Shown here in pieces: positions 7,471-33,262 of a DNA stretch of 64,000 nucleotides. Each line of letters opens with the position of its first letter. Position 1 is the first letter of the stretch. The stretch is from Clostridia bacterium (GTDB lineage Bacteria; Bacillota; Clostridia; Oscillospirales; Acutalibacteraceae), in the NCBI GenBank assembly GCA_017430535.1, contig JAFRMR010000001.1, positions 1 to 64,000 of the forward strand. Direction: 5' to 3'. Made by a program: the position numbers and the translations under genes. The notes beneath the pieces were generated by a model that was given only the letters and a program-made list of their open reading frames with translations, was not told the DNA's origin and did not search any database.

Positions 7471-7477
7471 AATTTTC

Positions 7478-8947
7478 TCATTTCAGTTCATCGCAAAGGG
7501 CGAGGAGTTCGTTTACGCGGTCAACGATACGCTGCTGTTCAGCAAGCGGAGGAATTGGAACGAGCATTTTGCTTAAAATGGCATGATTTAAGTTATTCAT
7601 GGTAGCTCCTACTGATTCTCCGCCAAGATATTTCTTTGCATATGTCGACGAAAAAAGCTTTATTAAATAGTTGCAACACATCAATGAACTTGGTTTCATA
7701 AAGAAAGAACCTGTACCGCAAAGCCATCCGTCCTCGATGTCTGTGATAACAGCACAACGACCCATCTCTCCACGTCTACCCATAACAATTACGCCTTTTT
7801 CCAAACGGTAAGATGAAAGCCGTTTAGCAGTTTCATTTGATACCATCATTTTTTTTGATGGATTTATATGTTCGTCAACGATATTAGCAGGATTAACAAG
7901 CGGAACACCATCGCTGATGTAATCTGATTTATGCAGCATGCTTCCAAACGGACCAGTTGACATAAAATTGATAACATTTGCAAACCTTACCCACGCCCAG
8001 CATTCTGGTATTTCAAACGGGATTTCCTCTTGCGTTATCGGCGAAAGGGGCTTTTCTTTTTTTATTTTGCCTTCTTTAATAAGTTGTTCTTTTTCGGCAC
8101 GGATACGTTTCAACAGTTCTGATGCCGGCTCGTCGGAAGGGTTGCGTTCTGTGAGTTTTCCCTGAATCGCCTGCTGCAGAATGGATTTGCGGAGTTTGTC
8201 CGGGAATTCCGTGTTCAGTTGGTCTAACTTTTCTTCCGCTTTTCCATACGCTTCCACCAGAGGCAACAGCTCTTCTATTTTTGCCACTATACGCTTTTGT
8301 TCGTTTAATGGCGGCACAGGAATAGGCGTGCTTTTGAGAATCGTTTGATTTATATTCATCTGTGCCATTCCCTTGCCTTTTGCAACGAAAATGTCCTTCA
8401 GACCAACAAGGATATAGTACAGATAATCAATATTATAATCACCAAAGAATGTAATTCCTGCAACAGCCTGATTAGTGGCCGCATCTATGTTGAGTATTCC
8501 AACTGTCCCAATAGTAGCAAAAATCGTATAAAGCAATGTACCTTTAGAAAAGACCTTGGCCGAAGAAGCATTTAGCCCAGCGTCAGTGATGCTTTCTTCT
8601 GCGCTTGTAACATATTTAGATGAAATATCGCCGATTTTTACCAATGGAATACTACCGTTCCAATATGATGAGTTTGTTCTGGAAGGCGTTCCCCCTGAAG
8701 ATATTGAAGATATCTCTGAAATTCTAACCCATTCCCAACTGTCTGGTATTTCAAAAGGTGTTTCATCTTCTGTAATTGGAGAAAGAGGTTTGTCTTTTTT
8801 GATCTTGCCATCATTTATCAGATGTTCTTTCTTTGCTTTAATCCGTTTCAGCAATTCCGATGCTGGTTCATCATTTGGATCCTGCGGTACCAGTTTGCCT
8901 TGTACTGCAAGCTGAAGGATAGCGTTTTTTAATTCCTGTGCGGTCAT
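7478..8947 (-). CDS. hsdS: Type I restriction-modification specificity subunit
   Basis: 489 residues with two target-recognition domains in the usual tandem form. Each half starts with a conserved leader (AVQGKLVPQDPNDEPASELL and AIQGKLTERNPSDEPASELL) and a PFEIPDSWEWVR or PFEIPECWAWVR entry. Each ends in PVPPLNEQKRIVAKIEELL or PIPPLAEQQRIVDRVNELL, the coiled-coil spacer that sets the distance between half-sites. HsdS contacts the two halves of a bipartite DNA site and guides HsdM and HsdR. The two leaders also form a direct DNA repeat (about 8045-8165 and 8765-8915) that could swap recognition domains by recombination. The ATG overlaps the hsdM stop by 4 bases, behind GGAGGG. Confidence 0.95.
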   Translation of the reverse strand: MTAQELKNAILQLAVQGKLVPQDPNDEPASELLKRIKAKKEHLINDGKIKKDKPLSPITEDETPFEIPDSWEWVRISEISSISSGGTPSRTNSSYWNGSIPLVKIGDISSKYVTSAEESITDAGLNASSAKVFSKGTLLYTIFATIGTVGILNIDAATNQAVAGITFFGDYNIDYLYYILVGLKDIFVAKGKGMAQMNINQTILKSTPIPVPPLNEQKRIVAKIEELLPLVEAYGKAEEKLDQLNTEFPDKLRKSILQQAIQGKLTERNPSDEPASELLKRIRAEKEQLIKEGKIKKEKPLSPITQEEIPFEIPECWAWVRFANVINFMSTGPFGSMLHKSDYISDGVPLVNPANIVDEHINPSKKMMVSNETAKRLSSYRLEKGVIVMGRRGEMGRCAVITDIEDGWLCGTGSFFMKPSSLMCCNYLIKLFSSTYAKKYLGGESVGATMNNLNHAILSKMLVPIPPLAEQQRIVDRVNELLALCDELK

Positions 8948-10392
8948 ATATTACCCTCCAGTTTTGCCGTTATCTCCGCTAAAATGCGGTCAATTTCAGT
9001 ATTAAGTTCTGCTCTTTCCTTTTCATATTTTGATATCAGTTCATTGGGTTCAAGGATTTCTTCTTCAACACGAGGGAAAGGGCAGCACTTATCAAAATCA
9101 TAGTTCAGGTCACGCAGTTCTTCAACGGTATAAAAGCGTGCCTTATCAAACCCATCAACCGTAACGGGCCGCTTATCCTGCCACCATTCACGAACAGGGT
9201 TAAAGTGTTTATCCTCCATCGGTTTGGTTTTTGTAAAGCTCTTAACGCCTTCAGGATAGTCGAGACGGTAAAACCATACGCCGCGGCTGGTAACGCCTTT
9301 TTGGAAGAAAATAAGGTTTGTATTCACACTTGCATACGGCTTAAACACCTGCGGTAAACGAATAACGGTATGTAACCCGTATTCTTTCAGCAGTTTTTCT
9401 TTTAAAGTCGCTTTTACTCCATCGCCGAACATAAATCCGTCAGGCAAAACAACACCTGCTCGCCCATGGTCTTTGAGTAAATGCATAATAAGCGCCATAA
9501 ATAAATCGGCGGTTTCGCTTGTCTGAACATCGTTAGGGAAATTCTGTTTTATGGTTGCATCTTCTGCACCGCCAAACGGTGGATTTGCAACAATTACATC
9601 TACGCGATCTTTTGCTGCATAATCAGAGAGCGGTCTACCGAGGGAATTCTGATGACGGATGCGGGGAACTTCAATATCGTGAAGAATAAGGTTTGTCATT
9701 GCAAGCAGATACGGCAGAGGCTTTTTCTCCCAGCCGTTTATAGTTGTTTGCAGTTTTTCCAATTCTTCAGTGTTTGTTACGCTGCCGAGATGAGCAATAG
9801 TGCTTGTTAAAAAGCCGCCTGTTCCACACGCGGGATCAAGAACTGTCTCGCCGAGTTTCGGATCGACTTTTTCAACTATAAAATTGGTTACAGGTCTGGG
9901 TGTATAAAACTCGCCTGCCCGGCCGGCGCTTTGCAGGTCTTTGAGCATGCCTTCATACAAATCGTTAAAAGTATGCTTCTGTGTTGCATCAATAAAATCA
10001 ACTTTTTCATTGATTCTGTTGATAAGCTGACGCAGATAAACGCCCGATTTCATATAGTTGTTAATATCTTCAAACACATTGCGGACAACATATTTACGCA
10101 TGTCGCCATCGGAAGCATCGAGCTTTTTAAGTTTTGAAAACAGCTTATCTACAAACGCAATCAGTTCATCGCCCGTGATGCCTTCTTTGTCAGCCGCCCA
10201 ATCGCGCCAGCGGAATCCTTCCGGAATTACAGCGTGGTAATCCGGACGGAACTCCCACTCCATTTCCTTTGCATCAAAGGCTTTGAGAAACAGAAGCCAG
10301 GTTATCTGTTCAATATATTGCGCATCGCCGTTAAGGCCGGCATCTTTGCGCATAATATCTTCGAGTGATTTTATCAATGCAGACATTGCCAT
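8944..10392 (-). CDS. hsdM: Type I restriction-modification DNA adenine methyltransferase
   Basis: 482 residues, normal for HsdM. The N-terminal helical HsdM domain (SLEDIMRKDAG, WLLFLKAFDAKE) is followed by the N6-adenine methylase core with SAM-binding motif DPACGTGGFLTS and catalytic NPPFGG. ETADLFMALIMHLLKDHGRA and GVVLPDGFMFGDG are further family blocks. It methylates the host site and forms the M2S complex with HsdS. AAGGAG lies 8 bases before ATG 10392. It follows hsdR by 12 bases and overlaps hsdS by 4, so the three are co-transcribed and translationally coupled. Confidence 0.96.
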   Translation of the reverse strand: MAMSALIKSLEDIMRKDAGLNGDAQYIEQITWLLFLKAFDAKEMEWEFRPDYHAVIPEGFRWRDWAADKEGITGDELIAFVDKLFSKLKKLDASDGDMRKYVVRNVFEDINNYMKSGVYLRQLINRINEKVDFIDATQKHTFNDLYEGMLKDLQSAGRAGEFYTPRPVTNFIVEKVDPKLGETVLDPACGTGGFLTSTIAHLGSVTNTEELEKLQTTINGWEKKPLPYLLAMTNLILHDIEVPRIRHQNSLGRPLSDYAAKDRVDVIVANPPFGGAEDATIKQNFPNDVQTSETADLFMALIMHLLKDHGRAGVVLPDGFMFGDGVKATLKEKLLKEYGLHTVIRLPQVFKPYASVNTNLIFFQKGVTSRGVWFYRLDYPEGVKSFTKTKPMEDKHFNPVREWWQDKRPVTVDGFDKARFYTVEELRDLNYDFDKCCPFPRVEEEILEPNELISKYEKERAELNTEIDRILAEITAKLEGNI

Positions 10393-10404
10393 AACAGTAT
10401 CTCC

Positions 10405-12741
10405 TTATGCAGCGTAAATTGCTGTTTCAAGTTCTTTTATAGCTTCACGGTATTTTTCAATACCGCCGAAAATAGAGTTGATAATATAAACTTGCGTGCC
10501 ATATTGTTTGATGGGGTCAACCTTCAAAACATCAACATTCTCAAGGTCATCAAGACCGCTGTCAGCATATTTTGTCAAAAGCGCGTCAAGAATCTCGGCG
10601 GCTTTTTCGCCGTATTTAGTGAAGTAATTCCTTTTGCGAACATGTTCTGCGCGCTCTTTTCGTGTATGCGGCGGTTGATCAAATACTATGTGCAGAATCA
10701 AATCAAAGGGATCAAGATCTTTTCCGATTTCGTCACAGAGATCATCAAAGAAAACACCTCGCTTTTCCAATTCTTCTATTACCGCTTGCTTTCTGTCAGC
10801 ATCATTCCATGCGGAAAGGAAATCATAAAGCGACGCATATTGATTAAGAACATTGCGCTTTGTATAGTCAATCAAGCTCTCTGTAATCAAATTGCCACTT
10901 TTATCAAGATACTGAACATGCTGTTGAGAAACGGTAACTGGTGTGCCGCCAAGAACAAATTTCTGTTTCTTTTCTCTGTCGGGAGGTGTCACTTTGGGCG
11001 GCTTATCCGGTTCTGTATCAGGTTTTTTAGGATCGAAGCCCTCCTGTTTCTCAATCGGGCCGTCAAAATCAGGATCGTGGAAAAGACGGGTAACATCTCG
11101 AAAATCAAATATTGTGAAATAAAGTTTCCCGAGATCTTCCCTCACGCGAGTGCCGCGGCCGATGATTTGTTTAAACTCCGTCATTGAGCGAATGTTTGAA
11201 TCCAAAACAATATATTTAACCGTTTGAACATCGACTCCTGTTGAAAGCAGTTTTGATGTTGTAACAAGAACAGGGTATTGACTTTCAACATTTCTGAAAT
11301 TGTCGAGTTGCTTAACACCCTCCTCGTCATTTGCAGTTATACGCATTACATATCTGTCATCCAAAGCACACATATCGGCATTTTCATTAATCAGAGCACG
11401 GCGCATACGGTCAGCATGCTCCTGATCCACACAGAAGAATATGGTTTTATCCATTCTGCAATCATGCTTTTTAAGGTAATCGGATACGGTTTTTGCTACT
11501 AACTTGGTGCGCTTTTCTAGAATAAGATTTTTATCAAAATCGGTTGTGTTATAAACGCGGTTGTCTATAACCTCACCGTTGTCATCAAGCTGACCTTCAT
11601 AAGGAACAAAGCCTTCAACATCACGGTCAAAGAACACTCGGATTACACGATAAGGCGCAAGGAAGCCGTCATCAATACCTTGCTTAAGAGAATAGGTATA
11701 AATCGGTTCGCCGAAATAATCAATATTTGAAACGGCGTTTGTTTCTTTGGGTGTAGCGGTCAAACCAATCTGTGTTGCTGAAGTAAAATACTCCAGCACC
11801 TCGCGCCATTGACTATCAGCTTTTGCGCTGCCTCGATGGCACTCATCTACAACAATCAAATCAAAGAATCCGGGGCTGAACTGCTCAAACAAACTGTTAG
11901 CATCTTCATCTTCACCTGTAAGGCCCTGATAAAGCGCCAGATAGATTTCGTGGGCAGTATCGAAATTTTGCTTTGTTACCCAGGTCATTTTATCCTTAAA
12001 AGGAGCAAAATCATTAGTGAAGGTCTGAGAAATCAAAGCAGTTCGGTCGGCAAGGAATAAAATGCGTTTTTTAATTCCGGCTTTCCATAAACGCCAGATA
12101 ATCTGAAATGCAGTATATGTTTTGCCTGTGCCGGTCGCCATGACAAGCAGAACACGGTTCTCTCCATTTGCAATAGCCTCAACGGTTTTGTTTATGGCGT
12201 TCATCTGATAATAACGCGGCTGCTTATCCGGATTATCGGAGTAATAAGGTTCATCAATAATAGTATCCTGAGCGGGGTTGATATGTGCTTGCTCGTGATA
12301 CATTTGCCAAAGGGTTTCAGGTGAGGGGAACTCATCCAGAGACAGTGTCACCTCAACATCGCCTTCGGTAATATATTTGTTATGAAAAAGAAAGCCGTCG
12401 CCGTTGGAGGAAAAAACAAACGGAACATCCATCATCTTTGCATAGTTCAATGCCTGTTGCATACCATCACCGATAGTATGGTTGTTGTCTTTTGCCTCTA
12501 TAATTGCAATAGGTTTATTGGGTTTATAAAATAGAACATAATCTGCTTTAAGCGGCATTTCTCTTTTACAGGTTTTGCCCCTTGCAATAATGCGGCCTTT
12601 GGTAATAGGATACTCTTCCCTCATTTGAGCAAAGGAATCCCAACCCGCATTTACAATTGCAGGTGTTATATACTTTGTGCGAATATCCATTTCGGATAGT
12701 TCTTTTTTATTTGTTGCAGGATTCACCACGATGACCCCCAA
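10405..12741 (-). CDS. hsdR: Type I restriction endonuclease motor subunit
   Basis: 778 residues of the EcoEI-like class. The N-terminal HsdR nuclease domain shows KADYVLFYKPNKPIAIIEAK, the PD-(D/E)XK core. The helicase part has Walker A VMATGTGKTYTAF, DEAD-type box DECHRGS, motif III LTATP and motif VI IIGRGTRVRED. The C-terminal EcoEI_R_C region follows a linker rich in proline and charge (KKPDTEPDKPPKVTPPDR). It translocates DNA and cleaves unmethylated target DNA with HsdM/HsdS. The longest start is TTG 12741; GTG 12729, spaced 4 bases from GGGGGT, is more likely. Confidence 0.95.
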   Translation of the reverse strand: MGVIVVNPATNKKELSEMDIRTKYITPAIVNAGWDSFAQMREEYPITKGRIIARGKTCKREMPLKADYVLFYKPNKPIAIIEAKDNNHTIGDGMQQALNYAKMMDVPFVFSSNGDGFLFHNKYITEGDVEVTLSLDEFPSPETLWQMYHEQAHINPAQDTIIDEPYYSDNPDKQPRYYQMNAINKTVEAIANGENRVLLVMATGTGKTYTAFQIIWRLWKAGIKKRILFLADRTALISQTFTNDFAPFKDKMTWVTKQNFDTAHEIYLALYQGLTGEDEDANSLFEQFSPGFFDLIVVDECHRGSAKADSQWREVLEYFTSATQIGLTATPKETNAVSNIDYFGEPIYTYSLKQGIDDGFLAPYRVIRVFFDRDVEGFVPYEGQLDDNGEVIDNRVYNTTDFDKNLILEKRTKLVAKTVSDYLKKHDCRMDKTIFFCVDQEHADRMRRALINENADMCALDDRYVMRITANDEEGVKQLDNFRNVESQYPVLVTTSKLLSTGVDVQTVKYIVLDSNIRSMTEFKQIIGRGTRVREDLGKLYFTIFDFRDVTRLFHDPDFDGPIEKQEGFDPKKPDTEPDKPPKVTPPDREKKQKFVLGGTPVTVSQQHVQYLDKSGNLITESLIDYTKRNVLNQYASLYDFLSAWNDADRKQAVIEELEKRGVFFDDLCDEIGKDLDPFDLILHIVFDQPPHTRKERAEHVRKRNYFTKYGEKAAEILDALLTKYADSGLDDLENVDVLKVDPIKQYGTQVYIINSIFGGIEKYREAIKELETAIYAA

Positions 12742-18130: not shown

Positions 18131-18156
18131 GAGCCTGCGGTGCAGGCTCTTTTTTT
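18131..18156. terminator. Bidirectional terminator between two convergent surface-protein genes
   Basis: GAGCCTGC (18131-18138) pairs with GCAGGCTC (18142-18149); six A precede it and seven T follow, so it serves both converging transcripts. Confidence 0.85.
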
Positions 18157-21100
18157 CAGCATACGCTTTCAAATTTTGAGAAGAGGGGGGCGAAGACGCC
18201 GAGGAGTAAGTCTGTGAGCCAGGCCTTGAGTTTATCAAAAAAGCCATGCTTTACGGCAACCTTTACGGTTTCGCTCTCGGCAACGGTGTTGCCGCTCGCA
18301 TCCACTATCTTTGACTGTACGGTGTAATCATCCTCGGGGTTTTCAACCTTAAAGGTTCTGCCCTCGCCGGCCTTTTCGCCGTTAAGGTACCACTGAACTT
18401 TGCCGCCTTCGGGTACGCCTGCGGCTTCGGCTGTGTAGGTTTTATTCTGCTTATAGCCCAGGGTTAAAGCGTCCTCGCCTTTGATTGCGATTGCCGCTTT
18501 TGCGGCGGGTTTATCATCGGCGGGCTTTTCCTTCTTGGTTTCGGTGAAAGTAGCGGTGTAGGTGGCGTTGCCCTCTGCCGCAGTTATTTCGGGGCTCCAG
18601 CCCTTGAAGGTGTAGGTTGCCTCATCGGTTTCCGCCTTGGCGGGAGTTTCGCCCTTGTATTCGGGGGTTCCCCCAAGGGCAACCGCTCCGCTCTGAAGGA
18701 CTGTGCCGTCTTCATTTACGAATTTTATTACGGGGTTAACCGTCAGCGTGCCGTCTGCGGTTCCGGTGATAACATAATTGCCGGCTGTGTCTCTTGTTTC
18801 ATTTTCTGTTACGCCGGAGAAGGTTACATCATAAACTCCCGGCTCTGTGCCGCTTCCGCTTGCGGTAACGCCGTCAAATGTCAGGCCTTCAACGCTGCTT
18901 ATGAAGCCGCTTACGGTCTTTTCTGTGCCGTCGTAGTTTTCCGTGCCGCTGTTTGCGGTAAGAGTTACTGAGGCGGGGTTAATTGTAAGGGTGCCGTTTT
19001 CTGTTCCGGTTACAACATAGTTGCCTGTTGCATCTCTTGTTTCATTTATTGTTACGCCGGAGAAGGTTACATCATAATCTCCCGCGTCTGTACCGCTTCC
19101 GCTTGCGGTAACGCCGTTGAATGTCAGACCCTCAACGTTGCTTGTGAAGCCGCTCACGGTCTTTTCTGTACCGTCGTAGTTTTCCGTGCCGCTGTTTGCG
19201 GTAAGAATTACGGAAGCGGGGTCAATTACAAACGCTTTTTCTATGGGAGCGTGGCTTTCATCGGGAATATACTCCACGCCGTTATCTTCCGCTTTCAGGA
19301 AAGTTATAACCGCCTTGTAATCGCCGGCGTCAACCGGATAGACAGAATCCGAACTCCAGACATCTCCGGGATTTTTGTAATATTTTACAGTATAATCACT
19401 GTCGGCTTCGAGGATTGTGAAATACTTTGTTCCGAGTACTTCATCACCGGAGCTGATTACCATTTTATATTTTCCCGGTTCTGTCGGGGAACCTGAGATC
19501 TCGTTCCATTCCCATGCGTTTTCGTCAGAATGTGCATTTTTGAAATATGTAACAGATGTACCTTCAGGAGCAGAACTGTCGCCGATAATGACGCTCGTAA
19601 CTGACGGCATCTGCGCCTGCCCGTTGTATGTGTATGAGTTTTTTCCGCTCCATGTTGCTGAGACTTCAACCTTCGCGGGCCATTCTTCTGATGCCGCTGT
19701 GAGGTCATAAGCAAAGCCCTTGAGATGCGGATAGAACAAGAAGTATTTGCCGCTCACATCGGCTCCGTCTGCTTTTGTGAGCCAGTCAGTGTCGGAAAAG
19801 CCCGTCATATTTGACAAAGCGTTTTCACCCGTCATCTGCGCGGTGGTGAGACCTTTTGCATTGCTTGCATCATCATCTGCGCCGCTTACCGCGCCGATAT
19901 TTCCGCATACGGATTTGTCATAATAACAGTTTGTGATTGTGCTGTCACTTGAATTTTTTCCTACCACGCCGCCGGTATATCTGCTACCCGATACACTTCC
20001 GGCACTGTAACAGTTTGTGACTGTGCCGTTGCCTGTATTATTCCCTGCCACGCCGCCGGTATAATCTTTGCCGGTGACACTTCCGGCGCTGTAACATTTT
20101 GTGACTGTGCCGACTAAGTTATACCCGACCACGCCGCCGGTATAACTGCTGCCCGATACATTTCCGGCGCTGTAACAGTTTGTGACTCTGCCGTTGTCTA
20201 TATTATATCCTGCCACGCCGCCGGTATAACTGCTGCCCGATACATTTCCGGCGCTGTAACAGTTTGTGACGGTGCCATCGTAATTTGCTCCAACCACACC
20301 GCCGGTAAAGCTGCCGCTGCCTGTAACATCTCCGGTGCTGTAACAGTTTGTGACTGTGCCGTTGCCTGTGTTAGTCCCGACCACGCCGCCGGTAAAGTTG
20401 CCGCTGCCTGTCACATCTCCGGTGCTGTAACAGTCTGTAACCGTGCCGTCTTCATTTAATCCGACCACGCCGCCGGTATAGGCATCGCTGCCTTTTACAG
20501 TTGCGTTGCTGTAACAGTTTGTGACGGTGCCATCATAATTCAATCCTACCACACCGCCGGCATCATTGCCGCTGCCTTTTACACTTCCCGTGCTGTAACA
20601 GTGTGAAACCGTGCCGCCTTTATTCTCTCCGACCACGCCGCCGGTTTTGTCTTTGCCGGTTATGTTTATGGCTTCAAGGCCCACATTTTTTACAGTGCCT
20701 TTGGTAGTTATGCCGCCTTCTGTTTTGGTTCCAACACAGCCGAAAAGGCCGACATAATTACTATTATAATCTGCGGGGGTTGAAAGGCCGGTAATAATAT
20801 TGCCGTCACCGTCAAAAGTGCCAATGTAATTATTGCTGTAATTACCGATGGGGGTCCAGTCGGTTGCGTAATCCGCATCATCGGGGCTGTTTTTGCACTC
20901 AATATCATTCATCAGTATTGCGCAGGCAGAAGGGTTTGCATTGCCGGCATACAGGCCTTGCCCGTTGACCATATCGGCAAATTCTTTTAATTCGTTGTAA
21001 CTCGTTATTTTCACCAAAGATTCCGGGCAGCCGTTGACATGATACAGTACAACGCCATGCGCATCTACGGAATCGATATGGAAACCTTCACCCATAGCAT

Positions 21101-21749
21101 CGCAGTAAAGGCCGGTGGCTCCGCCATTATCGTTGTCTCTGCCGGTTATTTTAACATGTGTCTTTCCGTCTGCTGATTCATACGAATCCTGCAGCACCTC
21201 ATATCTCCAGATATCAGCTTCAGACCGAATCCCCGCACTGCTCAGATTAAGCGAGGCGCATGCGAAAACTGCATTAAGAGAGCTGCATCCGCTGAAACTG
21301 TCTTGCCCTATTGATATAATACTCGGAGGCAGTATAACATCAGACAGAGAAGAGCAACCGCTGAATGAATATGACCCTATGCTTGTAACACCGAAAGGGA
21401 TACTTATTTTTGACAGAATGGAACAAGCATTAAAGGCGAAGTTACCTATTGACGTAAGCGAATCCGGCAGAGAAACTGTTTCAAGAGCGAAACAATTTTC
21501 GAATACACCATCATCAATTGAAGTGATGCCGTCTTCTAGAACAACTTTTTCAATCTGGGATTTGTCCGACACAGCAGTTTCAACTATATCACCGGTAACG
21601 CTGCCGGAGCCCTCGATAGTAAGAGTACCTGTAGAACTATCCCAGGTCGGTGTCGCTTCCGCAGACGCGGTCATACCGCCGACGGCTACCGCGCCGAGCA
21701 GAAGCAGAAGGGAGAGAAGAAGGGATATGCTTCTTTTTGCGTTTTTCAT
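18156..21749 (-). CDS. Large exported repeat protein: LRR_5, nine GLUG repeats, MBG/YDG repeats
   Basis: 1197 residues. Order: signal peptide (LLLSLLLLLGAVAVGGMTASA); a BspA/LRR_5 block (about 60-180); nine GLUG repeats of the form GGVVGxNxDGTVTNCYSxGxV (about 365-620), each carrying one Cys; an Ig-like stretch; two near-identical YDG/MBG repeats with ENYDGTEKTVSGF; a Listeria-Bacteroides repeat (YTFKGWSPEITAAEGNATYT); an Ig-like tail; and a C-terminal amphipathic helix (FFDKLKAWLTDLLLGVFAPL). This is a cell-surface adhesin or binding-protein architecture. There is no sortase motif. TACGGAGG precedes ATG 21749. Ligand unknown. Confidence 0.8.
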   Translation of the reverse strand: MKNAKRSISLLLSLLLLLGAVAVGGMTASAEATPTWDSSTGTLTIEGSGSVTGDIVETAVSDKSQIEKVVLEDGITSIDDGVFENCFALETVSLPDSLTSIGNFAFNACSILSKISIPFGVTSIGSYSFSGCSSLSDVILPPSIISIGQDSFSGCSSLNAVFACASLNLSSAGIRSEADIWRYEVLQDSYESADGKTHVKITGRDNDNGGATGLYCDAMGEGFHIDSVDAHGVVLYHVNGCPESLVKITSYNELKEFADMVNGQGLYAGNANPSACAILMNDIECKNSPDDADYATDWTPIGNYSNNYIGTFDGDGNIITGLSTPADYNSNYVGLFGCVGTKTEGGITTKGTVKNVGLEAINITGKDKTGGVVGENKGGTVSHCYSTGSVKGSGNDAGGVVGLNYDGTVTNCYSNATVKGSDAYTGGVVGLNEDGTVTDCYSTGDVTGSGNFTGGVVGTNTGNGTVTNCYSTGDVTGSGSFTGGVVGANYDGTVTNCYSAGNVSGSSYTGGVAGYNIDNGRVTNCYSAGNVSGSSYTGGVVGYNLVGTVTKCYSAGSVTGKDYTGGVAGNNTGNGTVTNCYSAGSVSGSRYTGGVVGKNSSDSTITNCYYDKSVCGNIGAVSGADDDASNAKGLTTAQMTGENALSNMTGFSDTDWLTKADGADVSGKYFLFYPHLKGFAYDLTAASEEWPAKVEVSATWSGKNSYTYNGQAQMPSVTSVIIGDSSAPEGTSVTYFKNAHSDENAWEWNEISGSPTEPGKYKMVISSGDEVLGTKYFTILEADSDYTVKYYKNPGDVWSSDSVYPVDAGDYKAVITFLKAEDNGVEYIPDESHAPIEKAFVIDPASVILTANSGTENYDGTEKTVSGFTSNVEGLTFNGVTASGSGTDAGDYDVTFSGVTINETRDATGNYVVTGTENGTLTINPASVTLTANSGTENYDGTEKTVSGFISSVEGLTFDGVTASGSGTEPGVYDVTFSGVTENETRDTAGNYVITGTADGTLTVNPVIKFVNEDGTVLQSGAVALGGTPEYKGETPAKAETDEATYTFKGWSPEITAAEGNATYTATFTETKKEKPADDKPAAKAAIAIKGEDALTLGYKQNKTYTAEAAGVPEGGKVQWYLNGEKAGEGRTFKVENPEDDYTVQSKIVDASGNTVAESETVKVAVKHGFFDKLKAWLTDLLLGVFAPLFSKFESVC
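18739..19222 (-). repeat. Two ~242-bp tandem direct repeats encoding YDG/MBG domains
   Basis: The halves 18739-18980 and 18981-19222 are nearly the same at the DNA level (for example both contain CACGGTC/TACGGTCTTTTCTGT and CGTAGTTTTCCGTGCCGC). This implies recent duplication or gene conversion inside the surface-protein gene. Borders are approximate. Confidence 0.7.
19900..20650 (-). repeat. Nine tandem GLUG-coding repeats
   Basis: Units of about 75-84 bases share segments such as CCGCCGGTATA and CTGTAACAGTTTGTGAC. Similarity is highest between repeats four to eight, suggesting expansion by slippage or unequal crossing-over. Borders are approximate. Confidence 0.75.
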
Positions 21750-22943: not shown

Positions 22944-23783
22944 TCAGGCCTGTTTCAGGGCGGCGTAGGTGTAAATTACGCCGCTCTCGTTAAGGGCGGG
23001 GAAGGCGCCGCCGGAGCCGTAGGAGGCGCCGTTTTCCACCCTGAAGCCGGAGGATGTTATTGAAAGCCCCAAAGTGCCCCCCTGCCCGGCGGCAAGGGCG
23101 GAGTAGATTTTGGTCTGCCCGTTTTCCGCGGCAAAGGGCGGGCAGCCGGAGGCGGCAAGGATAACGGCGGCGGGGCGGAAGCCCGGGCTGAAGGACCTTG
23201 TGCCCTCGCCGGTGCCGAAATAGGTGCCGCAGACAAAGGGCTCATCCAGAAAGGCCTGCCGTGCAGCGGAGAGGTGGATGCTTTCATCCCTTATATGGCT
23301 GCCGCACAGCAGGGTTTTATCAAGAAATGAGGGGAACTCAATATCAGAGCTCTGAGCCGGGCAGAGGCAGGCATTCACAATGGCGTAGGCAGGCAGCACA
23401 AGGGCGCCTGTGTCCCTGTCCTCCCTGATATATTCGCAGCCGGATTTTATAATCTCCAGCCCGGAGGCGAAGGTGAGGCAGTCCGTAATATCCGCAAAGG
23501 TGCTGTGGCAGGCGCTGCCGCCCATTTCATAAGGGACGTGGATATAAAAGCGGAGCTTTATAAGGGCCTTGCGGCAGTATTCATCCTGCTCAAGGGCGGA
23601 GACGTCATCTGCAAAATTATCCTCAATTTCAATGGATGAAATGCCCACCGCCACGGTGATTCTTTTAAGGGGAACCGCCTTTTTAAGGGGAGGGAATTCG
23701 GTTAAAAACCTTATGCCCTCAAGCTCCTCCCTGCCTGAAAGCCAGCTGACTATTGCCGAGGGCATTGCGCTCATTTCGTTCAA
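22944..23783 (-). CDS. Phage-module protein: tail-completion-like N-terminus with fibre-like C-terminal domain
   Basis: 279 residues, last gene of the head module, overlapping the preceding gene by 4 bases. Residues 1-about 130 have the size and position of a head-tail completion or tail-terminator protein (AIVSWLSGREELEGIRFL, CRKALIKLRFYIHVP). Residues about 185-279 look like a beta-rich surface domain (FSPGFRPAAVILAASGCPPF, LGLSITSSGFRVENG, NESGVIYTYAALKQ), similar to modules on phage receptor-binding or capsid-surface proteins. Such a fusion at the head-tail interface is unusual. Assignments rest on gene order and pattern, not on a named family. Confidence 0.4.
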   Translation of the reverse strand: MNEMSAMPSAIVSWLSGREELEGIRFLTEFPPLKKAVPLKRITVAVGISSIEIEDNFADDVSALEQDEYCRKALIKLRFYIHVPYEMGGSACHSTFADITDCLTFASGLEIIKSGCEYIREDRDTGALVLPAYAIVNACLCPAQSSDIEFPSFLDKTLLCGSHIRDESIHLSAARQAFLDEPFVCGTYFGTGEGTRSFSPGFRPAAVILAASGCPPFAAENGQTKIYSALAAGQGGTLGLSITSSGFRVENGASYGSGGAFPALNESGVIYTYAALKQA

Positions 23784-24118
23784 ATCTCTTCCTCCTCAAC
23801 GGTTTTTCTCAGGATTGCCCATATATAGAAAACGCTGTCACCTTTATAAACTTTCTCTCCCCTTTCGGTCCGGTACTCCTCGCCGCCGCACAGGATAATG
23901 CTGCCCGGGGGAGTTATATCCGCATCACCGGGGCCAATGTAGAGGTAGCAGCCCTCGGGGTTATAGCCGATCTGGGTGTTTACGCCGTAAAGGTAGAGCT
24001 TGTTTTTATAGCGCAGGGGGCTTATGAAGGCCCGGGTGCTTTTAAGGGTAACACCCTGCTCATCCTTTATATCACAAGCTCTTGCAAAGCTCTGCATAAA
24101 CCTGCCGAAGGCAATCAT
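23780..24118 (-). CDS. Phage head-tail connector-like protein
   Basis: 112 residues. It contains FMQSFARACDIKDEQG, then a beta-rich stretch (LYLYGVNTQIGYNPEGCYLY, IGPGDADITPPGSIILCGGEEY). Size, position and composition fit a head-closure or minor capsid protein of siphophage head modules. It overlaps both neighbours by 4 bases and so is translationally coupled. No specific family is recognised. Confidence 0.45.
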   Translation of the reverse strand: MIAFGRFMQSFARACDIKDEQGVTLKSTRAFISPLRYKNKLYLYGVNTQIGYNPEGCYLYIGPGDADITPPGSIILCGGEEYRTERGEKVYKGDSVFYIWAILRKTVEEEEI

Positions 24119-24471
24119 ACTTTCACCCCGGCAAACATAAAGCTGCTGTCCCTTAAAAGGGGAGCCGCAGCGGCAAAGGCGGAGCTGAGCTCCTGCTTTG
24201 CGGCCTTTAAGGGAGCGGCGCTGTCACCTTTTACGGTAACATCCCCCGCCCTGAAAGATGAAACAAAATCACCGGCAAAGCTCTGCCTTACCGTAAGGCG
24301 GTAATTCACAAGGGCCGCCCCTAAGTTTATGAGGCGTATGTCTTCGCAGTCCGCCCCGGGCTTTATAAGGGGCTCCAGCTCCTTTACCGCGGCGCGGCAA
24401 AGGGGTAGCGCCTTAGTTTCATCACCGCCGTAAAGCTCTGCAAAAGCGGCGGCTACCGTGCCCGCCGTCAT
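24115..24471 (-). CDS. Phage head-tail adaptor-like protein
   Basis: 118 residues, mostly helical (TVAAAFAELYGGDETKAL, CRAAVKELEPLIK, INLGAALVNYRLTVRQ), in the slot directly after the major capsid gene. gp6/gp15-type connector proteins are usually encoded there and are about this size and helical. Overlaps with both neighbours are 4 bases. Function is inferred mostly from order. Confidence 0.5.
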   Translation of the reverse strand: MTAGTVAAAFAELYGGDETKALPLCRAAVKELEPLIKPGADCEDIRLINLGAALVNYRLTVRQSFAGDFVSSFRAGDVTVKGDSAAPLKAAKQELSSAFAAAAPLLRDSSFMFAGVKV

Positions 24472-25469
24472 GCAGAAAGCACCCTGCTTGCCTCGGGCGA
24501 AATTTTGGCAAAGCCCGCGGTGCAGCTTATAACCGCCCTTTCAAGCTGGCGGTCAATGAGTTTATCATACTCGGTGGTAACATCACCGGCCTTAACCATC
24601 TCAAGGGCGGCGTTTTTATCAATACCCAGTATTTTGCCGCTGCCCAGAGCCGGGCTCTTGATAAGCTTTGCGCCGAAGGGGGTTACCGCCTTGCCTGTGC
24701 CGTGGAAGGTGAGGCCTGCCGCAGCATCGCGGAACTGGCTCATATTGAGCAGGGCCGCCATCATATCCGGAGAGGCAAGGATTGTGTTCATTTCATAGGG
24801 GTCAAAGCTGTTCCAGAGGTTTATAAGGTCGCTGTACTCAAGGCTTTCGCCTGCAATGCCTGCAGAGGGGGCGGCGTTATTGTTGCCGTCGCCGTTAATG
24901 AGCACATCAACCGCATCCTTTGCAAGGGTTCTTGCAATATAGGCGCCTATCTGCTTAAGGGTTACGGTGAATAAATCAAGGCGCTGGAACCTGAGAGCCT
25001 CGTAGGATGCCACAAGGCTTCTGCCCCGCTTTTTAAGAGAAACAAGGTTTTCCTTGGTTCTTACGGCGGTTTCCGGGATGAAAGCTCCCTCCGCTACGGT
25101 TTTAAGCTCCTTTTCATCCCCGGTGGGCACTGAATTTATGGAGCGGTAATCAAGGCCGTTTATGTTGGTTACGGTTGCCACAAGGGAGGGCAGGATATCC
25201 GCCTGCTCCATTCCCTTCCTGACCGCCCTTGAAATAAACTCAGGGAAAAGCACGGAGCTTTCGGTGGTGGCAAAGAATTTTTCCACGGTATCGCCGGAGG
25301 GGCCGCTTACCTTGATATCAAACCTTTTGAGCTGCCTCTGGTAGGAATCCAGCCCCTCAAGCTCGGTGCCTTTATAGTTCTCATCCGGGTCTATTCTGCC
25401 CAGAGCCGCGGTGAAATCCCCGCCGGAATAAAGCCCTTTTTCAAGATGAATGCTGTCATAATATGCCAT
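24468..25469 (-). CDS. Phage major capsid protein, HK97-like fold
   Basis: 333 residues. An N-terminal segment of about 65 residues is followed by FFATTESSVLFPEFISRAVRKG, the usual start of the mature capsid domain. Then come VATVTNINGLDYRSI, AEGAFIPETAVRTKENLVSL (the E-loop side), LFTVTLKQIGAYIARTLAKDAVDVLINGDG (spine helix) and MNTILASPDMMAALLNM. The C-terminal strand region includes RAVISCTAGFAKISP. It should form the shell around packaged DNA. AAGGAGGGCGGC precedes ATG 25469. No stop or frameshift interrupts it, so the gene has been kept intact. Confidence 0.88.
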   Translation of the reverse strand: MAYYDSIHLEKGLYSGGDFTAALGRIDPDENYKGTELEGLDSYQRQLKRFDIKVSGPSGDTVEKFFATTESSVLFPEFISRAVRKGMEQADILPSLVATVTNINGLDYRSINSVPTGDEKELKTVAEGAFIPETAVRTKENLVSLKKRGRSLVASYEALRFQRLDLFTVTLKQIGAYIARTLAKDAVDVLINGDGNNNAAPSAGIAGESLEYSDLINLWNSFDPYEMNTILASPDMMAALLNMSQFRDAAAGLTFHGTGKAVTPFGAKLIKSPALGSGKILGIDKNAALEMVKAGDVTTEYDKLIDRQLERAVISCTAGFAKISPEASRVLSA

Positions 25470-25480
25470 AGCCGCCCTCC

Positions 25481-25822
25481 TTAAAGAATCATAGTGAGCT
25501 GTTTGTTTACAGCGTCAACATCAATTACAAACTTATAGAAACTGTCGGTGCCCTGGGTGATTTTGCCGTTGCCGTCGGGGGTAAGGTCAATATAACCCGC
25601 CTCAATGCCGGCGCCCCTGTAGGGCACGGTAACAACGCCGCTTACAACCACGGAAACACAGCCCCCTCTTGTGTGCAGGGCAATGCCCATAAAGGGCTCA
25701 CCTGTGGCCGCAGGGGCAACCTTGCCGGGAGCCACGGGGGCAACGGGAGTGCCGGGGGCAATATCCTCATCCGTAAGAAAAGTGAGAACCTGATTGCCGC
25801 AGCCTTTAAATCCTACTTCCAT
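25481..25822 (-). CDS. Probable capsid decoration protein
   Basis: 113 residues, beta-rich and rich in Gly, Val and Pro: DIAPGTPVAPVAPGKVAPA, MGIALHTRGGCVSVVVSGVV, PYRGAGIEAGYIDLTPDGN. The small size, composition and location between protease and capsid genes fit DUF2190/gpD-like decoration proteins that stabilise HK97-type shells. AAGGAGAA lies before ATG 25822. Its neighbours are 12 bases away on either side. Confidence 0.55.
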   Translation of the reverse strand: MEVGFKGCGNQVLTFLTDEDIAPGTPVAPVAPGKVAPAATGEPFMGIALHTRGGCVSVVVSGVVTVPYRGAGIEAGYIDLTPDGNGKITQGTDSFYKFVIDVDAVNKQLTMIL

Positions 25823-25834
25823 ACTAATTCTCCT

Positions 25835-26671
25835 TTATATAATGTACTGTGTGTAATCCGCTTTTTTCCCTTTTGCGGGGGAGGCAAGCTGGAGCACGGG
25901 GGTGAACTTTTTATTTGCCTCTTTTTCAAACACATCCCTTACCTCGCGCAGCTCCTTAAGTGGCAGATATGCGCATACCTTTTCAAGGGTTTCGCCGCAG
26001 AAGCCGGGGATAACCCTGCCGGCGTAAAGGGTGATATCCTTTTTTATATCCTCCCTGTAAAGGTGCTCAATATCATCGGCGGGGCTGTGGGATTTGGTGA
26101 TGCCTGCGTTTTTCTGGGCAGGCACCGCCACAAAGGACCACTCGTAGACATCCGAGGGCTCATCAAGGATATAAAAACAGGTGCGCCCGCCGTAAAGGGC
26201 GCCTTTAAGGTGCTCGCAGCCCTCGGAGCGTTTATCTTTGCCGCAAACAGAGCACTTTATGCTCTTCACATTGCAGTTTACGCTTATCTCCTTTTTGATG
26301 CCGGCGTCAATCTCGGCAATAAGGTCCTTATTCTTTTCGCTGCGCACCATATAAGCCATTGCCTTAAGGCAGGTATATGGCTCGCCGTCGGCGGTTTTGC
26401 GTGTTTCATCCCGTTCAACCCGGGCGGAATAAATGCGGGCGGTCTGGTCCTTGCCGCTTAAGTTATGGTCAAAGATACCGGTTTTGCCCACATAGAGCTC
26501 CGCCATTTTTTCAAGAGCCCCCGGTGTGAATTTTTCGCAGTCCCTGTCAATTTCATTATCGCAGAGCACTACGGGGAATGTGTAAATCTCATCGGGGCTC
26601 ATTTTTCTGCGGGTGAAGGAGTTGATTTTTTCAAGCTCCTCACTGCAGAGTGTTTCTTTTTCCTTCATCAT
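25835..26671 (-). CDS. Prohead maturation protease with a cysteine cluster
   Basis: 278 residues. FPVVLCDNEIDRDCEKFTP and LYVGKTGIFDHNLSGKDQTA correspond to the N-terminal strands and the catalytic His (FDH) of phage prohead proteases. IKKEISVNCNVKSI carries the likely catalytic Ser. Next a CSVCGKDKRSEGCEHLKG cluster could bind zinc. The gene order portal-protease-decoration-capsid supports the call. It would trim capsid and scaffold during maturation. GGGAGA precedes the ATGATG start, and it overlaps the portal gene by 4 bases. Confidence 0.72.
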   Translation of the reverse strand: MMKEKETLCSEELEKINSFTRRKMSPDEIYTFPVVLCDNEIDRDCEKFTPGALEKMAELYVGKTGIFDHNLSGKDQTARIYSARVERDETRKTADGEPYTCLKAMAYMVRSEKNKDLIAEIDAGIKKEISVNCNVKSIKCSVCGKDKRSEGCEHLKGALYGGRTCFYILDEPSDVYEWSFVAVPAQKNAGITKSHSPADDIEHLYREDIKKDITLYAGRVIPGFCGETLEKVCAYLPLKELREVRDVFEKEANKKFTPVLQLASPAKGKKADYTQYII

Positions 26672-27798
26672 TTCTCCCTTTCCGTTCGTTTTGCCTGAGC
26701 GCGGTAAAGCATGGCCCGGCTCTGCTCCACCTCATCCTGCAGAGTGATATCATCCCAGATAACCTTCGCCCCGGGGGCAAAGCCCCTGCCGGTGAGGAAG
26801 GAGTTGCAGATTTTGAGGATAACCGGGGTAAGGATGCGGCGGTAGGATTCAAGCTCCGCCGTAAGGGCATCCGCCTGCTGGGCGCTCATCCTTTCGGTGG
26901 TGCTCCAGGAGAGGCCCAGCATAAAGGGGGGTATGCCGGTTTTTGCCACAATCTGCTCAAGCATCTGCCTTACGGGCACTTCGCTGTCCGGTATGGCGGC
27001 CTCGCCGCCTATCACCTTAATCTGCACATCTCCCACGGCCACAAAATCCCTTACCTCAGCCCCCTTGCGCATGGCGCGGGACCACTCGCCGGCTATCTGC
27101 TCCGCCCGCTCCTTGGCAAAGGCCCTTTCGGAGGAATCGTTTTTGGGGTTATAGGTTACGGCAAAGCGCAGGTTCCCCGCCCGCTCCCAGTTCAGGCCCG
27201 TACTCTCAAAAATCTTCAGCAGAATTCCGCTGACAAAAGGCAGCCCCTTAAGCATAGAGTTGCCTGTGAGAGCGCCGGGGTCCGGGTTAAGCACGCTGAC
27301 AAGGCACAAATCCGGCCTGCTTACCTTAACCTGCCCGCCGTTTCCGTTTACATAGATATCAATATTGAAGCCGTCCTTTGCCCGCTTGAACTCAACATTT
27401 TCAAGGGGAGAGTTAAAGAGCCCCGCGGGCCTGCCTGCGGTATCCGTAACAATTTCGCCAAGGGCGGTGCCGCAGGTGATAAGCTGCTCAAGGTAGCTTT
27501 CGGTAAAGGCGTGAAGGCCCTGCCTGTTGCCCCCTACTGGCACCCCCAGCACAAACTCCTCAAGAGCTTTGCGGGCGCGGGGATCGGAGCACTCCACCCG
27601 GTAGCCCCCGGTAAGGCGCACGGTTTTGAAAACCGCGGCGTCAATTACGGGCACCGCCTCACGCAGGGCGTAATAAAGCCGGTTTTCCGGTGTGCTCAGG
27701 GGCACATAGCCCTCAAGGCCGGCAAAGGCCCCCGATTTTGCGGGCTGTGTTACCGGGGCCGCAATACCTGCCCGGGCTTTCTTTCTGAATAATGCCAT
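26668..27798 (-). CDS. Phage portal protein
   Basis: About 376 residues from ATG 27798 (AAGAAGG upstream; a GTG at 27810 would add four). Typical portal features are LYYALREAVPVIDAAVFKTV, GGYRVECSDP, LEQLITCGTALGEIVTD, FKRAKDGFNIDIYVNGNGG, and later VRQMLEQIVAKTGIPPFMLG, which precedes the long crown helices (RMSAQQADALTAELESYR). Twelve copies would form the ring through which terminase loads DNA and to which a tail docks. It is directly downstream of the large terminase gene. Confidence 0.82.
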   Translation of the reverse strand: MALFRKKARAGIAAPVTQPAKSGAFAGLEGYVPLSTPENRLYYALREAVPVIDAAVFKTVRLTGGYRVECSDPRARKALEEFVLGVPVGGNRQGLHAFTESYLEQLITCGTALGEIVTDTAGRPAGLFNSPLENVEFKRAKDGFNIDIYVNGNGGQVKVSRPDLCLVSVLNPDPGALTGNSMLKGLPFVSGILLKIFESTGLNWERAGNLRFAVTYNPKNDSSERAFAKERAEQIAGEWSRAMRKGAEVRDFVAVGDVQIKVIGGEAAIPDSEVPVRQMLEQIVAKTGIPPFMLGLSWSTTERMSAQQADALTAELESYRRILTPVILKICNSFLTGRGFAPGAKVIWDDITLQDEVEQSRAMLYRAQAKRTEREK

Positions 27799-27806
27799 TT
27801 TTATTT

Positions 27807-29066
27807 TCACCTTCTTACACTTATTACGCCGAAGCTGTCTGCGCCCTCACGGATTGCAACTTGCGAAACAAAATACCTGATATCGTCCATAGCGTGGTCG
27901 TTTTCCTTTACCACAGCGTCTCCGGCGCAGTCCTGCTTCCAGCGGTAGAGGCCGAATTCCCTTATGGTATCGGTGCACTCCGGGGCAAAGAAAAGCCGGC
28001 CGGCGCGGAGCAAATCCTGCACCCGCCTTATGCCGTCCACAACATCATTATCCGCCTTGATAACCCTGAACCTGCCCCGCCTTTCAATAAGTTCAATGAA
28101 GCTCGCTGCGCTGGGATCCGCAATTACCGCCCGTATGGGCAGATCCCCGGCAAGGCGCTCCAGGGCCTCATAATGCTCGCTGTCTGTTTTTCTTACCCCG
28201 GTTTCCCGGGAATCGTAGTAATACTCCCTTAACCTGTACCACTTATCCCCCAGCCGTCCCCACAGGCCGAAGGAGGAGGGGCTCACGGTGCCGTAATCGC
28301 AGGAAATCCAGTATTCCTCCGGCTCTGCAGGCGGGTATTTTACATGGGTTTCGCTGCTGAACATGGGGTAAACGCAGCCCCTTGCCGCCACCCACAGACC
28401 AAGGATGTATCTGTCCCTGAAAACCCCGGTATAAAGCCGCTCATAACGCCTGCGCACCCCGGGGGAAAGGGATGGGTTATCATCCATGGTGAAGTGGAGA
28501 TAGAGGCAGTTTTTCTCCCGGGCTTTCTTTATCCACTCCCTGTAAAACCAGTGCATGGGATGCTCCGGGTTGCAGCTGAACCAGAATTTTGCCCCCTCGG
28601 CGGAGCAGCGGGCAAGGGCCTGCTCCACAAAAGAGCGGGGCATAAGGGCAACCTCATCAAAAAGCACGCCCCCGAGGGTCATGCCCTGAATAAGGGAGGC
28701 GGAGCTTTCATCCCTGCCGCCGAAAAGGCGGAACCTGTTTGTGCGGCCGAAGGCGCTTACGGTAACCGTATTTGCGCTGATTTTTTCCTCATAATAAAGG
28801 CCCGCCTGCCGCAGATAAGGAAAAACCGCCGTAACAATATTGCGCCTTACGGAGGTTATGGTTTTGCCGCAGATTGCAAAATCCATATCGTCAAACTCCG
28901 TGCTTGCCCAGAGCACAAAGGAGATGACCATACACATTGTTTTGCCGCTCCTTACGGCGCCGTCGCAGATTATGCCGTCAAAACTGCGGCTTTTGCTGCC
29001 GGGCAGCCACCAGCTGAGAGCCCTCAGCTGCTTTGGCGAAAAGGGGGTTACGCCCTTACTCTTCAT
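27807..29066 (-). CDS. Phage terminase large subunit
   Basis: About 419 residues from ATG 29066; a longer frame to 29138 would overlap the small-terminase gene heavily and has no ribosome site. Walker A is ICDGAVRSGKTMCM and Walker B is GGVLFDEVALMP, followed by the coupling motif WFSCNP. The nuclease half has ISCDYGTVSPSSFGLWG, IRAVIADPSAASFI and NDHAMDDIRYFV, supplying the acidic metal ligands of the RNase H-like fold. All motor and nuclease motifs look intact. It cuts and pumps DNA into the prohead. It overlaps the small-subunit gene by 11 bases. Confidence 0.92.
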   Translation of the reverse strand: MKSKGVTPFSPKQLRALSWWLPGSKSRSFDGIICDGAVRSGKTMCMVISFVLWASTEFDDMDFAICGKTITSVRRNIVTAVFPYLRQAGLYYEEKISANTVTVSAFGRTNRFRLFGGRDESSASLIQGMTLGGVLFDEVALMPRSFVEQALARCSAEGAKFWFSCNPEHPMHWFYREWIKKAREKNCLYLHFTMDDNPSLSPGVRRRYERLYTGVFRDRYILGLWVAARGCVYPMFSSETHVKYPPAEPEEYWISCDYGTVSPSSFGLWGRLGDKWYRLREYYYDSRETGVRKTDSEHYEALERLAGDLPIRAVIADPSAASFIELIERRGRFRVIKADNDVVDGIRRVQDLLRAGRLFFAPECTDTIREFGLYRWKQDCAGDAVVKENDHAMDDIRYFVSQVAIREGADSFGVISVRR

Positions 29067-29367
29067 CCTGTGCTTCCCGGGCGGAGAGCGAAAGAGCCTC
29101 CAGCAGAGCGGAGCCCATACCGCTGCCCTTTTCCTCAAGGGCGAGCAGGCACTGGATTGCCTTTATGCGGTCAAAAAACTTTATCTCCGATATTCCCCCT
29201 GCGGAGCGCTTTATGCCGGAAACATTGGTAAGGTTAAGCCGCTTTATCTGCCGCTCCGAAAGCTCGCTGCCGTAAAGCATAAGCCGCACCGGGTCCGACA
29301 CCTGCCCCAGGGCAATCTGCCTGAGGGCATCCGTAATCTGCTCGCGGATATCTTTTTTGCTTTTCAC
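29056..29367 (-). CDS. Phage terminase small subunit-like protein
   Basis: 103 residues from GTG 29367, which follows GGGAGGTATGAT; the longer open frame to 29466 runs through a terminator. KKDIREQITDALRQIALGQV, LSERQIKRLNLTNVSGIKR and a coiled C-terminus ending in two Glu fit a small terminase or HTH protein that recognises DNA to be packaged. It is the first gene of the module and overlaps the large subunit by 11 bases. Confidence 0.6.
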   Translation of the reverse strand: MKSKKDIREQITDALRQIALGQVSDPVRLMLYGSELSERQIKRLNLTNVSGIKRSAGGISEIKFFDRIKAIQCLLALEEKGSGMGSALLEALSLSAREAQDEE

Positions 29368-31732: not shown

Positions 31733-33262
31733 TTACGAGCGCCAGAGTTTCCGGTCAAGGCTTCTGAACTGCACGGCTCTTGCCACATGGACTGCCTCAA
31801 CGGTTTCGCTGCCCTCAAGGTCGGCAACGGTTCTTGAAACTCTGAGTATTTTATCGTAAGCTCTCGCGGAAAGATCCAGCTTGTCAAAGACTTTTTCAAG
31901 CATAATCAGGGCCGCGGGAGATGGCTTGCAGTAAAGCTTGGTCATTTCGGGGGTCATCTTTGCGTTGCAGGTGATACCTGTGCCTTTAAGGCGCTCCTGC
32001 TGGATTTTGCGGGCGGCGTTCACCCGCTTCTTTATATCTGCGGAGCACTCGCCGTTTTCTTCGGAGGAGAGCTTCTCAAACTCCACGGGAGGCACCTCAA
32101 TATGAATATCTATACGGTCCAGCATAGGGCCCGATACCCTTGCAAGGTAACGCTGGGCAGCTCCCGGCGGGCAGGTGCACTGCCTTTTGGGGTGGCCGTA
32201 CCAGCCGCAGGGGCAGGGGTTCATGGCGCACACTACCATTGCGGAGCAGGGGTAGGTTACGCTGCCGCTGGCCCTTGAAATGGTGATTATATTATCCTCT
32301 ATGGGCTGGCGGAGAACCTCCATTGCCTGCCGTGAAAACTCGGGCAGCTCATCAAGGAAGAGCACGCCGTTGTGGGCAAGGGATATTTCGCCGGGCCTCG
32401 GTATGGCTCCGCCGCCGGAAAGGCCTGCGGAGGAAACCGTGTGGTGGGGTGCGCGGAAGGGTCTGTCAGTAATAAGCGAAACGCCTTCGGGCAGTACCCC
32501 GGCTATTGAATAGAGCTCGGTGGTCCTTAAACTCTCCTCAAAAGTCATATCCGGCAGTATGGAGGGCAGGCGCTTTGCCAGCATGCTTTTGCCTGAGCCG
32601 GGAGGGCCCACCATAAGTATATTGTGGCCGCCGGCCGCCGCAATCTCAAGGGCGTAGCGCGCCTCCTGCTGGCCTCTGACATCCCGGAAATCCGGCAGAG
32701 GGGCTTTATTGAGGGATTCGGCGGATTTATCGTAGGTAACGGGGGTAAGGGTGGTGAAGCCCGTAAGATGCTCCACAACCTCTTTAACGGAGGAAACGGC
32801 GTAAACCTCTATGCCCTCAACCACGGAGCTTTCAAGGGCGTTTGCCGCAGGCACAAATACTCTTTTGATGCCCTCTTTTTTAGCCCTGATAACCATAGGC
32901 AGGGCGCCGTTTATATGCCGCACAAGGCCGTCAAGGGAAAGCTCGCCGATAAAGGCACAGTCATCTGTATCGGCCTTCAGCCTCTGCTCCGCTTTAAGCA
33001 GGGCAATGAGTATGGGCAGGTCATAGAGGGGGCCTTCTTTTTTGGTATCTGCCGGGGAAAGATTTACGGTAACACGGCTCTGGGGGAAGGAATAGCCGCT
33101 GTTTTTCATGGCGGAGCGGACCCTGTTGCGGGATTCGTTTACGGCGGCATCAGGCAGGCCTACAACATCAATCCTGGGCAGACCCATGCCGAAATCAACC
33201 TCAACGCCCACCATGTAGCTCTCTATTCCGTAAAGGCCCATGCTGTTTATGCGGGCAAACAT
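31733..33262 (-). CDS. comM: YifB/ComM family Mg-chelatase-like AAA ATPase
   Basis: 509 residues, the normal size. The N-terminal Lon-protease-like ChlI domain (GLPRIDVVGLPDAAVNESR, SPADTKKEGPLYDLPIL) is followed by the AAA core with Walker A GPPGSGKSMLAKRLPSILP, Walker B VLFLDELPEF and the C-terminal MG_chelatase domain (SARAYDKILRVSRTVADLEG). A four-Cys segment (CPCGWYGHPKRQCTCPPG) is typical. ComM acts as a branch-migration helicase in natural transformation. TATGTTTGCCC start at 33262 is preceded by GGAGGGA. Confidence 0.95.
   Translation of the reverse strand: MFARINSMGLYGIESYMVGVEVDFGMGLPRIDVVGLPDAAVNESRNRVRSAMKNSGYSFPQSRVTVNLSPADTKKEGPLYDLPILIALLKAEQRLKADTDDCAFIGELSLDGLVRHINGALPMVIRAKKEGIKRVFVPAANALESSVVEGIEVYAVSSVKEVVEHLTGFTTLTPVTYDKSAESLNKAPLPDFRDVRGQQEARYALEIAAAGGHNILMVGPPGSGKSMLAKRLPSILPDMTFEESLRTTELYSIAGVLPEGVSLITDRPFRAPHHTVSSAGLSGGGAIPRPGEISLAHNGVLFLDELPEFSRQAMEVLRQPIEDNIITISRASGSVTYPCSAMVVCAMNPCPCGWYGHPKRQCTCPPGAAQRYLARVSGPMLDRIDIHIEVPPVEFEKLSSEENGECSADIKKRVNAARKIQQERLKGTGITCNAKMTPEMTKLYCKPSPAALIMLEKVFDKLDLSARAYDKILRVSRTVADLEGSETVEAVHVARAVQFRSLDRKLWRS

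Follow-up and report, generated by a model that had tools for sequence, protein, structure and literature searches.

Very few gene transfer agents (GTAs) are known outside the Alphaproteobacteria. Among other phage-derived particles, PBSX of Bacillus subtilis is a full contractile particle and the cf-PICI satellites have head and packaging genes without a tail. RcGTA retains a siphovirus-like tail, and its transfer of genes is proven. According to the accessible parts of the sources, RcGTA and the Rhodogtaviriformidae descend vertically and consist of caudoviricete-derived proteins (PMC9662315, PMC6854486), and the RcGTA small terminase (TerS) is without a helix-turn-helix (HTH), which has been proposed as the basis of its random packaging and as a mark of GTA-type TerS proteins (PMC6854486). 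The element described here resembles RcGTA in its vertical descent, its caudoviricete-derived proteins and a TerS without HTH.

GTA-like packaging in Ruminococcaceae and Oscillospiraceae has been described by Borodovich and colleagues (PMC12946183). The accessible part of that paper identifies genes only in Faecalibacterium (FpGTA, published in 2026) and gives none for Ruminococcus callidus, CAG-115 and Onthomonas, where GTA-like packaging is also reported. Like the present element, FpGTA comes from the same order and has a chromosomal head operon with TerS, large terminase (TerL), portal and major capsid protein (MCP) genes; in the available text no replication genes are reported for it, and its TerS is without an obvious DNA-binding domain (PMC12946183). 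FpGTA particles have been seen without identifiable tails, whereas the present element is known from its genes alone, and FpGTA differs in having a second operon with baseplate, fibre, holin and endolysin genes (PMC12946183).

Here we describe a locus in the window, by which we mean the whole stretch of 64,000 nucleotides that was analysed. It is probably a vertically inherited, domesticated, phage-derived GTA-like element of Oscillospirales, whose tail would have eroded to a terminator-fibre protein. The sequence-only reading had proposed an undescribed system. That description fits the present lineage and its head-only member, for neither of which we found an account in the literature; it does not fit the type of system, since GTAs are known and FpGTA has been published.

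Organization of the locus

The element is a minus-strand block of nine frames at 22944-29367, running from TerS to a terminator-fibre fusion (Table 1), and all nine are open and adjacent, as the sequence-only reading had stated. The close packing that it noted is also seen: there are 4-base overlaps at five junctions (TerL/portal, portal/protease, MCP/connector A, connector A/connector B and connector B/last gene) and gaps of 12 bases between protease and decoration genes and 11 bases between decoration and MCP genes. The right edge is confirmed as the GTG start of TerS at 29367, with GGGAGG as ribosome site.

Table 1. Features of the element by position in the window; values in brackets are from profile searches
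Feature	Position	Strand	Remarks
TerS	29056..29367	minus	103 aa; without the N-terminal helix-turn-helix kept by many relatives
TerL	27807..29066	minus	ATPase and nuclease motifs present; PF03237 (3e-12), phrog_2 (1e-49)
Portal protein	26668..27810	minus	phrog_30703 (8e-126)
Probable prohead protease	25835..26671	minus	phrog_16951 (6e-96); XkdF-like only via a relative's weak match
Decoration/cement-like protein	25481..25822	minus	phrog_4588 (9e-15)
MCP	24468..25469	minus	PF25209 Phage_capsid_4 (4e-17), phrog_3922 (8e-98)
Connector A (head-tail adaptor, position only)	24115..24471	minus	position conserved in relatives
Connector B (head closure, position only)	23780..24118	minus	position conserved in relatives
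Last gene, tail terminator domain	23358..23783	minus
Last gene, linker and fibre-type domain	22944..23357	minus	homologue in relatives is encoded on its own, at the baseplate operon's end

The Walker and nuclease motifs that had been read in TerL are present (Walker A, Walker B and three acidic motifs), and among the annotated isolates of the phage set it comes closest to Lactobacillus-type phages, with an identity of about 50%. The PHROG family of the protease has no assigned function, and the match of the homologue in L092 to XkdF (PF14550, E 0.045) falls below the cut-off. In profile searches the window's TerS, both connectors and the last gene matched no Pfam family and no PHROG convincingly, TerS and the connectors being named from position and from profiles built on relatives; a sequence search of solved structures with the MCP gave no match at E 0.01. 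A tail terminator fold is found in RcGTA as well (6tba).

Five element genes have a third-position GC of 0.61-0.69, close to the 0.51-0.65 of seven neighbours, and overall GC (0.55) is somewhat above that of the flanks (0.49 and 0.51). The sequence-only reading had placed a terminator at the upstream edge; terminator-like sites in the region (18, against 12.7 +/- 3.6 in shuffles) are not clearly above chance. Between the last gene and ptsH there is a promoter-like site that agrees at 11 of 12 positions; there is no excess of such sites in the region (7, against 6.3 in shuffles).

Distribution and split copies

The locus, first taken to be solitary, recurs widely. With the window MCP as query, one match each was obtained in 28 of the 36 other genomes of the genus. 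A 28-row profile found the MCP in 101 of the 395 genomes examined from the order, 51 of them among the 60 same-family genomes listed (a figure that includes the window's own genome), and in 71 of 148 genomes of one further family, f25; these counts take in a few contig-end fragments (G354, G410, G472) and G288, whose match resembles an ordinary phage, and most genomes surveyed are MAGs, many of them incomplete. The class search gave matches in 12 of 393 genomes, three of which lie outside the order and matched more weakly. Copies are nearly always single. Because eight of the 36 congeners are without an MCP, including G007, which is rated 100% complete, the element is dispensable.

In three tiny genomes, G480 (0.7 Mb), G551 (0.8 Mb) and G496 (0.9 Mb), the protease and MCP genes (accompanied by the decoration gene in G496) lie apart from TerS and TerL, and no portal was seen at the split loci read. 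The TerS/TerL locus of G480 also contains connectors, a terminator-tube fusion and gp25, LysM, hub, J, I and fibre genes, and is located about 126 kb from the other locus on the same contig, a distance beyond the capacity of a small head. That parts of the element survive in scattered form with open frames in such small genomes favours a host function.

Descent with the host

A tree of concatenated TerL, portal, protease and MCP sequences from 28 genomes was compared with one of rpoB. The trees have 16 of 25 bipartitions in common, including family-level groups, and the distances are correlated overall (r=0.859, n=28), within the genus (r=0.970, n=12; 0 of 5000 permutations in both cases) and when one genus member is retained (r=0.508, n=17; 1 of 5000 permutations). 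Nine bipartitions conflict with rpoB, some of them well supported, so that occasional exchange or tree error is possible. The element is inherited vertically and has co-diverged with its host across three families.

Selection

Values of dN/dS were calculated by the Nei-Gojobori method for 40 of the 126 locus pairs whose MCP genes exceed 80% nucleotide identity; pairs between the window and its relatives approach saturation. The seven pairs within the genus gave 0.03-0.15 for TerL, 0.04-0.25 for the portal, 0.03-0.26 for the MCP and 0.09-0.24 for the fusion, with the upper values coming from three pairs of L032, L033 and L034. Over all 40 pairs the maxima are 0.37 for TerL, 0.29 for the portal and 0.28 for the MCP, and the decoration and connector genes are less constrained, reaching 0.6-0.8 in some pairs. 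No internal stop is present in the MCP rows of the order survey, and one TAG is found among the rows of the f25 survey. The genes of the element are under purifying selection, and the check that had been suggested for capsid, portal and terminase gives values that are not near one.

Absence from those eight congeners is what might be expected of a neutral relic that is intact by chance. The dN/dS values of the large genes and the fusion, the near absence of internal stops and the retention in genomes of 0.7-0.9 Mb all point the other way, and we give this explanation almost no weight: it is refuted by the selection tests, unless these are artefacts of distant pairs. Of the three options that the sequence-only reading had left side by side, a decaying relic is therefore hard to reconcile with dN/dS and the open frames, and a domesticated particle is favoured by the single copy common in the genus, co-divergence with rpoB and purifying selection.

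Loss of the tail

The gene order had been called siphophage-like, which is not the case, as relatives bear a contractile tail. In Oscillospiraceae relatives the genes of this tail follow the order LysM, hub, gp25, J and tail-I of PBSX, from which the window element differs in being without a tail. The relatives form a series from a contractile tail, through a baseplate without a sheath, to no tail (classes were assigned by profile matches, and a few of the loci classed as 'hub only' are truncated where their contigs end), and one clade, of 27 loci, has lost sheath, tube and baseplate altogether. The fusion unites the two genes that bordered the lost baseplate. The earlier statement that tail genes are missing is thus correct insofar as neither baseplate J nor sheath was found in the window's genome, which is 97% complete, and incorrect insofar as the last gene (terminator plus fibre) is itself tail-derived. 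As judged from gene content, sheath, tube, baseplate and the TerS DNA-binding domain have been lost here, and a terminator-fibre fusion has formed. The series poses a natural question: which parts of a particle must a host keep?

One alternative explanation is that the domesticated capsid packages DNA without transferring genes, acting as a DNA store or sink, a phage decoy or an intracellular structure, and that the tail was shed as export and injection were no longer needed. The loss of sheath, tube and baseplate throughout the 27-locus clade while the head genes stayed constrained would agree with this, as would the terminator alone, without a fibre domain, in tail-less L040, L042, L049, L060, L074 and L230. 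However, the window retains a fused fibre-type domain. When the fusion was split in five pairs, the fibre half (dN/dS 0.12-0.23) evolved faster than the terminator half (0.03-0.15) in all five, with both below one, and a constrained, faster fibre half is in keeping with contact between cells. The window has also retained TerL, the portal and the connectors, so its system is more than a shell. On balance we regard a capsid that takes no part in transfer as unlikely.

The DNA-binding domain of TerS

No HTH is detectable in the window's TerS. It is missing in 45 of 119 loci, which the tree resolves into as many as 11 losses, a few of them dependent on marginal scores (L198, L200 and L219 are marginal assignments); one loss corresponds to the clade formed by the window with L031, L035 and L039. 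The loss is not general, since 74 of 119 loci keep the domain, as do 19 of 23 fusion-type loci, and most relatives in the genus retain it. By analogy with the GTA-type TerS proteins mentioned above, the loss in the window would lend support to a GTA reading, short of proof.

Neighbouring genes

The element is flanked by ptsH on one side, where the earlier assignment is upheld by a PF00381 match, and by TPR, ComM-type and topoisomerase genes on the other. Conservation of the ptsH side, which the sequence-only reading wished to see checked, extends to three of 21 loci compared (the window, L031 and L035, with ptsH downstream) and fails in the rest; the 21 include L038 and L196, which are the same locus twice. 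An MgtE-type gene is the commoner neighbour, upstream in 12 of the 21 (the family was tested in one member), and a gene adjoining four of them resembles glycerol kinase in its sequence. Neighbours are thus variable within the genus, yet overlapping.

A ComM/YifB-type Mg-chelatase gene (31733-33262) lies 2.4 kb upstream of TerS in the window; a search of the 21 genus-related loci did not find such a gene close to the element. Near ptsH, 18156-21749 encodes a protein of 1197 aa that contains BspA-type leucine-rich and GLUG repeats.

The flanks also bear on the idea of a head-only satellite of the cf-PICI kind, or a prophage remnant, that borrows tails. A module of head genes alone would be typical of it, a few phage-like contigs contain an MCP gene by itself, and in L281 a PF00589 integrase (7395-8468) adjoins a window-like copy with a fusion gene, 0.7 kb downstream. 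Members of the cf-PICI group would have an integrase and their own replication genes beside the head module, whereas a Pfam scan of the larger window genes (14585-37218) found neither. Ten flanking proteins from seven relatives' loci include no integrase, nine belonging to host-type Pfam families and one to none. Baseplate J and sheath were found in one of 41 genus genomes, the same for both (G028), so that there is hardly any tail to borrow. With no integrase found at the window's locus, nearly always one copy per genome and descent with rpoB over three families, we consider a satellite or remnant highly improbable.

Relationship to FpGTA and possible function

Genus g113, which we take to be Faecalibacterium from matches to a 16S probe, was used for comparison with FpGTA. 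The probe matched 10 of 246 genomes, seven in g113 and one each in three other genera; six of the seven g113 matches are complete and have six copies each. The order and f25 searches with the MCP gave no match in a g113 genome, and the TerL profile gave a partial match in one of 15 g113 genomes. Homologous TerL and MCP, as expected of the FpGTA lineage, were thus not found in the genus so assigned, and, as judged from the g113 genomes, the element would therefore represent a separate or very diverged lineage.

Of the GTA features listed in the accessible part of PMC9662315, caudoviricete-derived proteins are present, and vertical inheritance with co-diversification is observed, apart from the nine conflicting bipartitions. 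Full endogenisation, often at several loci, is seen in the host flanks and in the splits of G480, G551 and G496; the window's own copy is a single locus. The list further includes packaging of mainly random host DNA, on which the HTH-less TerS of the window bears only indirectly, incomplete packaging of the agent's own genome, on which the distance between the two G480 loci bears, and delivery of the cargo to other cells.

Read at sequence level, the element combines host descent, purifying selection and a complete packaging motor. It is very likely domesticated, and it likely packages host DNA; for transfer of DNA to other cells we would allow an even chance at best. These gradings are judgements, not computed values. 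In our preferred scenario, a GTA-like element, the host would retain genes for building capsids and filling them with DNA. Small capsids would assemble, TerS and TerL would package DNA without a pac site, and the cargo would most likely be unselected pieces of the cell's own chromosome. The terminator ring may close the neck and display fibre domains to neighbouring cells, with release through lysis encoded elsewhere. Delivery is the least certain step, since the element has neither tube nor baseplate for injecting DNA, and uptake might need the recipient's own machinery.

More tentatively, and with somewhat less than even confidence, we suggest an ancient GTA family, separate from FpGTA and distributed over three Oscillospirales families, in which the tail was lost stepwise. 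The window would then encode a tailless GTA, with a ring of terminator-fibre fusions on a DNA-filled head and recipient-aided uptake, and the family could be the source of the packaging in Ruminococcus callidus, CAG-115 and Onthomonas. Because the lineage supplies concrete candidate genes in many genera, the source of packaged gut DNA becomes testable.

Copies in unusual contexts

A lone MCP copy (10001-10981) is located in the early region of a 34.5 kb phage contig, L317, which also has its own portal, TerL and PF05065 capsid. Genome G281 has two MCP copies (L216 and L236), one in the usual module and one alone; the lone copy, in L216, lies beside an RNA ligase gene in a setting similar to that of L317, and the MCPs of L216 and L317 are missing ten and nine residues, respectively, at the same place. 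L276 (G354) presents a similar picture, with the start of an MCP at a contig end, near YqaJ. It is possible that the lone MCPs in phage-like contigs are decoys or hijackers of the particle. Finally, L111 (MT835508.1), a faecal GenBank entry labelled "Bacteriophage sp.", appears to be bacterial chromosome; it contains a head-only copy of the element and a ribosomal protein operon that was recognised by sequence alone.
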